A DNA stretch of 64,000 nucleotides from Methanothermococcus sp. SCGC AD-155-E23. GTDB lineage: Archaea > AGJL01 > Methanococci > Methanococcales > Methanococcaceae. The stretch is from NCBI GenBank assembly GCA_019561615.1, contig JAHEQA010000004.1, forward strand, positions 5,231-69,230, in the 5' to 3' direction. Below the pieces are notes generated by a model. The model had not been told where the DNA came from. It saw only the letters and a list, made by a program, of their open reading frames with translations, and made no database searches. Positions 8,865-39,327 of this stretch are shown here, one piece after another (within the stretch, counting starts at the first letter, position 1; each line of letters begins with the position of its first letter). A program made the translations under genes and the position numbers.

Positions 8865-8923
8865 GGTGGATGATGATCGGTGGTAGCTTCTGACCTGTGA
8901 TGAATGATGGGCGAACTGACACC
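8865..8923 (+). ncRNA. C/D box sRNA guiding 2'-O-methylation
   Basis: All elements of an archaeal C/D box sRNA are present in order. The terminal stem is GGTG (8865-8868) with CACC (8920-8923); the C box is ATGATGA (8870-8876), D' CTGA (8890-8893), C' GTGATGA (8897-8903) and D CTGA (8916-8919). The two guide segments are 13 nt (8877-8889, TCGGTGGTAGCTT) and 12 nt (8904-8915, ATGATGGGCGAA). By the known rule, the target nucleotide pairing with the fifth guide base before D or D' is methylated. The targets should be complementary rRNA or tRNA stretches (5'-AAGCUACCACC and 5'-UUCGCCCAUC); I could not place them from memory. It sits in the 101-base gap between mcm and a convergent gene. Confidence 0.85.
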
Positions 8924-15110: not shown

Positions 15111-15143
15111 GGTCCCATCCGAAGGCACTGCCAGGATGGGACC
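15111..15143 (+). promoter_or_regulatory. Archaeal SECIS element of hdrA
   Basis: A perfect hairpin: GGTCCCATCC (15111-15120) pairs with GGATGGGACC (15134-15143). Inside is the conserved internal loop GAA (15121-15123) opposite A (15133), then a GGC/GCC stem with a three-base loop. This is the archaeal SECIS consensus, here in the 3' untranslated region of hdrA, and it directs SelB-dependent decoding of the UGA at codon 197. Confidence 0.93.
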
Positions 15144-15152
15144 AGATGAAAT

Positions 15153-15231
15153 AAGATGTGGGGAGTTCCGTTCCCCCTGAAAGCCCACCAAGATTAAGGT
15201 GGGAAGATCCTCCTTGGGAGGATCAGAACGG
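15153..15231 (+). ncRNA. Structured RNA, omega-RNA-like tnpB end (copy B)
   Basis: A 79-nt stretch, AAGATGTGGGGAGTTCC to AGAACGG, with three hairpins: GGGGA/TCCCC, CCCACC/GGTGGG with loop AAGATTAA (15184-15203), and GATCCTCC/GGAGGATC with a three-base loop (15206-15224). Linkers and order match the minus-strand copy at 851-931, where every stem pairs with different bases. In one frame it reads DVGSSVPPESPPRLRWEDPP, like the tail of TnpB proteins, so it probably came from a transposon right end. Copy B has perfect stems but no tnpB. It lies 10 bases after the hdrA SECIS and 54 bases before vhuD, in the sense of the operon mRNA. Whether it acts now is unknown. Confidence 0.5.
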
Positions 15232-15284
15232 CTATTCTCACTTTTATTATTGTTATCCTCATTATTTTTTTAAAGGTGAAAGGT

Positions 15285-15692
15285 ATGGAGACCCCAGTAA
15301 TAATTGCATTTGCATGTTATCAGTGAGGGTATGGAGCTGCAGATCTAGCTGGAACCAGTAAGATGCAGTACCCTCCATCTGTTAGAATTATAAGGATACC
15401 CTGCACTGGCAGATTTGATATATCTTATGCCCTCAGGGCCTTCCAGAAGGGTGCAGATGGGGTTATGGTTGTAGGGTGAAAACCCCACGAGTGTGTCTAT
15501 GAAAGTGGGAACTTCAGGGCCGAGGAGAGGGTAAAACTTACAAAAGAGATACTGGAGGAGCTGGGGATAGGGGGAGAGAGGATAGAGATATTCCTCATGA
15601 GTGCGGCAGATGCTGCCAAGTTTGTTGAGGCTGTAAATATCATGACTGAGAGGGTTAACAGGTTAGGCCCTAACCCCTTGAAGAGCCAGTGA
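15285..15692 (+). CDS. vhuD: F420-non-reducing hydrogenase iron-sulfur subunit D, selenoprotein
   Basis: VhuD passes electrons from the VhuAG hydrogenase to HdrA through a [2Fe-2S] cluster. It has 135 residues if two in-frame TGA codons are decoded as Sec: Sec14 (15324-15326, in CYQ-U-GYGAADLAG) and Sec65 (15477-15479, in VVG-U-KPHECVYESGN); both replace cysteines of MvhD-type proteins. The rest follows the family (QYPPSVRIIRIPCTGR, ADGVMVVG, RLGPNPLK). AAAGGTGA lies before the ATG. The terminal codon 15690-15692 is also TGA and is followed by GGG TAG, so readthrough would add Sec-Gly. The SECIS lies 24 bases downstream. Standard gene calling would miss it. Confidence 0.9.
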
Positions 15693-39211: not shown

Positions 39212-39327
39212 GGGGATATGGTGTAGTCTGGTCTATCATCGGGGACTCCAAGTGCCTATATGGGCTTGGACCAACCCCGTGCAGGAGAAATCCCCGGACC
39301 TGGGTTCAAATCCCAGTATCCCCACCA
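39212..39327 (+). tRNA. tRNA-Trp (CCA anticodon) with intron
   Basis: The acceptor stem is GGGGATA (39212-39218) with TATCCCC (39317-39323), then A and an encoded CCA end. The anticodon stem GGGGA pairs with TCCCC, and the loop CTCCAA carries CCA at 39248-39250. An intron of 38 bases (39252-39289) follows position 37, the usual archaeal intron site. The T arm is CTGGGTTCAAATCCCAG. The CCA is encoded. The intron is shorter than the box C/D-containing introns of haloarchaea. Confidence 0.93.

Follow-up and report, generated by a model that had tools for sequence, protein, structure and literature searches.

An RNA element between hdrA and vhuD

The window is the whole stretch of DNA analysed here, 64,000 nucleotides of Methanothermococcus sp. 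SCGC AD-155-E23. At 15153–15231 (+), between hdrA and vhuD, it carries a 79-base element that reads AAGATGTGGGGAGTTCCGTTCCCCCTGAAAGCCCACCAAGATTAAGGTGGGAAGATCCTCCTTGGGAGGATCAGAACGG. The element starts 9 bp past a SECIS-like hairpin that follows hdrA (15111–15143, +; sub-threshold flpD match at 15112–15142 in an Rfam scan) and ends 53 bp ahead of vhuD (15285–15692, +; PF02662 FlpD, E 2e-48), a gene with two in-frame TGA codons. The bases at 15232–15251 (+), in the would-be guide position, are flanking DNA and form the start of the vhuD leader. An initial annotation had marked this 79-nt stretch between the hdrA SECIS and vhuD as a structured RNA, and had both its sequence and its coordinates right. 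Comparisons were made within a set of 36 Methanococcales genomes (G-numbers; loci in them carry L-numbers), to which a wider search at phylum level added none. G000 is the window's own genome, with an assembly 86% complete, and G026 is its sister species, 99% complete. The G026 contig with vhuD matches a MAG bearing the label Methanothermococcus okinawensis SZUA-1534.

The element belongs to a widespread RNA family

When the element was used as a sequence query, 12 of the 36 Methanococcales genomes proved to hold copies. A covariance model (R1) built from 20 of these copies shows that they form a family, whose 55 members are spread over 14 of the 36 genomes, six of them in G000; further copies with paired substitutions, which the initial annotation had proposed to look for by this means, are thus widespread. 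R1 matches 15153–15231 at 85.9 bits (E 2e-21), a score that is not independent since this sequence was among those used to build the model. The second copy, at 851–931 (−), scores 86.2 bits and forms the end of a decayed tnpB, with a zinc-ribbon remnant of that gene directly upstream. The whole of 851–1100 (−) reads as a decayed tnpB, with a zinc-ribbon end containing stops and then the right end. No Rfam family matches the vhuD element at either gathering or relaxed thresholds, and viral contigs gave no match to the scaffold and two exact 18-mer matches to the guide. Elsewhere in the window, the C/D box RNA sR2 (RF01139) lies at 8866–8921, above its gathering score, and a match at 39212–39324 covers 113 nt although the tRNA model has 71 positions, and probably marks a tRNA gene with an intron.

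The fold comprises three stems and a pseudoknot. Stem 1 pairs GGGG (15160–15163, +) with CCCC (15174–15177, +) and is paired in 95% of cells in the 20 copies. CCGTTC (15168–15173, +) is complementary to GAACGG (15226–15231, +), the pseudoknot arm that stands directly before the guide position. Stem 2, the hairpin CCCACC-AAGATTAA-GGTGGG (15184–15203, +), and stem 3, the hairpin GATCCTCC-TTG-GGAGGATC (15206–15224, +), are both covarying helices. The earlier description of the stems stands as far as their pairing goes; it overlooked the 6-bp pseudoknot and the shortness of stem 1. Its comparison with the minus-strand copy at 851–931 is borne out, in that the two copies have linkers in common and pair in stems 2 and 3 despite different sequences there.

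Covariation across the family exceeds that of both shuffled and slid controls. In the 20-copy alignment, standard pairs fill 92.7% of pair cells, and two-sided changes occur at 8 of 24 pairs. Covariation scores 0.259 there, whereas shuffled alignments give 0.123 and slid structures no more than 0.113. The 55-copy alignment, whose fitting to the structure calls for caution, gives corresponding figures of 94.3% standard pairs, two-sided changes at 16 of 18 pairs (all eight pairs of stem 3 among them) and a score of 0.421 versus 0.176 shuffled. The folding energy of the vhuD element is also lower than that of all its shuffles (z = −3.1). A long basal helix between its 5′ part and the vhuD leader, which appears in the minimum-energy fold, was rejected, because the pairing does not surpass that obtained when the flanks are shuffled (p 0.24 and 0.42).

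The pseudoknot is supported by invariance and by its occurrence next to the two full-length tnpB genes described below, rather than by compensatory change: its columns are 85% paired with little variation in the 20-copy alignment. All six pairs form in the vhuD copy and beside both full-length genes. The pseudoknot is broken in the remaining copies of G000; at 851–931 (−), CCTCTT replaces CCGTTC. The vhuD copy is the sole one in G000, and likewise in G026, to have stems, pseudoknot and tail all intact.

Origin in a tnpB transposon

The family RNA overlaps the 3′ end of a full-length tnpB in two genomes, G034 (open frame of 412 codons) and G007 (410 codons; both Pfam Cas12f1-like_TNB), and extends past it. 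This overlap shows that the family derives from the right end of a tnpB element, as the initial annotation had supposed, and supplies the intact genes with the same 3′ end for which it had suggested a search. It also changes how the linker GATGTGGGGAGTTCCGTTCCCCCTGAAAGC is to be read. This linker encodes the TnpB C-terminal residues DVGSSVPPES, and a variant with one extra T encodes DVGSFRSPER instead. Linker conservation consequently has two causes, and linker identity alone is no evidence for an RNA.

Intact elements and short deletion derivatives begin with GGGCTGTTT or a similar sequence and end with AGAACGG. An empty site in G005, corresponding to one copy in G006, fixes both transposon ends. 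AGAACGG is the transposon boundary at the right end, and the vhuD copy has the same end. The empty site, CTTAGGGGGAGG, is compatible with duplication-free insertion at a GG core, the run of G blurring the boundary, and left flanks of elements end in GGG. The two full-length elements (G034 and G007) contain tnpB only, with neither tnpA nor a serine recombinase. Mobilization by the IS607 elements of the order was considered and rejected, since those examined in related genomes have differing ends. The source element was probably a TnpB-only transposon of the IS605/IS607 superfamily.

Nonautonomous elements of ~250 bp, composed of a left end, a scrap of the tnpB 3′ region and an omegaRNA right end, are MITE-like and common in the order. 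They occur at L119, L120, L123, L124 and L129 (G035), at L126, L146, L147, L150 and L152 (G010, G005 and G006) and at L140, L144 and L151 (G022), the last genome being without an intact tnpB.

History of the vhuD copy

The vhuD copy retains less than these elements do. Neither a left end nor tnpB lies beside it, which extends the earlier observation that no tnpB is left at this site. The insertion between the hdrA SECIS and vhuD is present in G000 and G026 only; in G025, G029, G022 and less closely related genomes, vhuD is there but the element is not. A single insertion predating the split of the two species is the simplest account of this lineage-specific presence. The stems of the vhuD copy resemble those of a copy in G028 (L139), a likeness which suggests that L139 marks the source subfamily. 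In many Methanococcales (L072, L073, L069, L067 and L070) a short hairpin of the GGGGCTATGTGGCCC type, with varied stems, directly follows the hdrA SECIS; it is missing from G000, G026, G025 and G029.

A second right-end-only orphan scaffold is common to G022 and G028 (L156:1601–1717, −, and L154:1640–1753, −), where it sits between ribC and a TRAM-like gene, names that were assigned by eye. The same gap in G025 (L125) holds an element of another subfamily with both left and right ends.

Is the vhuD scaffold still a guide RNA?

By analogy with ISDra2, the bases past the transposon end of an intact element would guide TnpB. Searches with two Pfam models and at the protein level turned up no intact tnpB in G000 or G026, and no TldR-type, nuclease-dead TnpB-like gene was found in these two genomes. 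The missing 14% of the G000 assembly could hold tnpB; none was found in the 99% complete G026 either. Possible targets were sought as GG plus the first 14 guide bases in five genomes (G000, G026, G025, G029 and G022). Beyond the element's own locus, G000, G026 and G025 have no match with fewer than three mismatches, and the other matches in G000 and G026 all carry three. Three-mismatch matches somewhat exceed the reversed-pattern control in G000 and are near it in the five genomes together. Single matches with one or two mismatches occur in G029 and G022, both of which are without the element at vhuD. In G026, moreover, an extra C at the guide start shifts the guide register by 1 nt.

Comparison of the bases after AGAACGG with genomic targets, as the initial annotation had recommended, therefore gave no convincing second match in the five genomes. 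For TldR repressors a guide of only 6 nt can be enough (PMC13418256), so the target search does not decide the matter by itself and the missing protein is the stronger argument. In a cell that has no TnpB the scaffold would be unable to act as a guide, and a working guide RNA at the vhuD site is unlikely.

Does selection act on the fold?

Fourfold sites of hdrA, vhuD and vhuG differ between G000 and G026 at 60 of 458 positions (13.1%). Within the element, the same two genomes have no substitution at the 48 paired and pseudoknot positions, and four substitutions plus one indel at the 31 unpaired positions. Under the neutral rate, 0/48 has a p of 0.001, or 0.006 at the lower confidence bound of that rate, and the contrast between paired and unpaired positions gives a Fisher p of 0.02 (0.008 counting the indel); this test involves two species and few changes and was chosen post hoc, after the data had been seen. 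The vhuD leader (15232–15284) has no substitution in 52 positions and one indel, set against 13% at fourfold sites, and its identity may reflect the vhuD leader itself. The orphan pair of G022 and G028 likewise has no paired changes, in contrast to ordinary relic pairs in other comparisons, which change in their stems. The vhuD copy thus has a cleaner fold than a pure relic would be expected to show, and this fold may be weakly constrained.

Interpretation

We consider that 15153–15231 is most probably a relic, an orphan omegaRNA scaffold left as the solo right end of a tnpB transposon; of the options raised by the initial annotation, this is the one that the evidence favours. In an intact element, the tnpB mRNA would fold at its 3′ end into stem 1, two hairpins and the pseudoknot. 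Such an element would have entered the spacer between the hdrA SECIS and vhuD in the common ancestor of the two sister species, and everything but its last ~79 bp, including the left end and tnpB, would have been lost or never have been there. The scaffold is probably transcribed inside the hdrA–vhuD mRNA as a compact structured spacer. Any present effect would be a cis effect on intercistronic processing or stability, and the scaffold may be neutral. At most, the vhuD copy would act as an intercistronic mRNA structure.

That the element has been exapted, its compact fold between SECIS and vhuD being useful in the mRNA for processing, for protection of the hdrA 3′ end or for separation of the vhuD leader, is doubtful, if still the best placed of the alternatives. 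That paired positions are unchanged and unpaired ones evolve at the neutral rate argues for it, as do the matching behaviour of the G022/G028 orphan, the substitution-free leader and the presence of another hairpin just after the hdrA SECIS in many relatives. Against these stand the two-species basis and post hoc choice of the test, the fact that G025 and G029 manage without element or hairpin, and the failure of the extra helix with the leader to better its shuffles. There is only a modest chance that selection on its fold preserved the scaffold beyond the loss of its nuclease, as a cis-acting structure in the mRNA of the main energy operon, with the ribC/TRAM-like site as a second, independent case.

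A domesticated guide RNA, in which the scaffold would load a TnpB-like protein and guide it with the bases after AGAACGG, is far less probable. In its favour, the scaffold with its pseudoknot and the flank on the guide side have stayed intact and conserved; yet this option of the initial annotation finds no support in genomes where no intact TnpB and no convincing second target were found and where the guide register is shifted in the sister species. Scarcely credible is an ordinary short nonautonomous element, with left and right ends and tnpB deleted, that is still mobile: MITE-like copies of ~250 bp are common in the order, but the vhuD copy has no left end, and the SECIS-like hairpin ends only 9 bp upstream.

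Relation to known systems and significance

In layout, the scaffold resembles the omegaRNA (reRNA) of ISDra2 TnpB, in which the tnpB 3′ end likewise provides the scaffold and the RNA scaffold ends at the transposon right end (PMC10097598, PMC8612924). Common to both are stem 1, intervening hairpins and a pseudoknot directly before the guide position (PMC10097598); in ISDra2, the pseudoknot that stacks on stem 1 is made by bases −6 to −2 ahead of the guide (PMC10097598). The vhuD copy differs in that it stands alone, with neither tnpB nor a known effector. IS607-type TnpB uses a RAGATH-18-derived reRNA with pseudoknots downstream of tnpB and a G-rich target-adjacent motif (PMC11061315), a motif compatible with the GGG left flanks of the elements described here. 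Unlike that reRNA, the present family has no Rfam match, and the IS607 serine-recombinase elements examined have other ends. Archaeal omegaRNAs, or sotRNAs, are made from the 3′ ends of transposase genes in IS200/IS605 elements (PMC12558985), whereas the vhuD copy is known from its sequence and adjoins no transposase gene. In TldR systems, omega-like guide RNAs have survived domestication (PMC13418256); with the vhuD scaffold, by contrast, no TldR or other TnpB-like gene was found.

The finding is a sound observation with an ordinary origin and a mildly unusual preservation. It defines a pseudoknotted omegaRNA family in Methanococcales that matches nothing in Rfam and is tied to a TnpB type and to transposon ends. 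Right-end-only scaffolds can remain foldable where no intact tnpB is left and, if selection on the fold proves true, a guide-RNA scaffold would have been reused without its protein.
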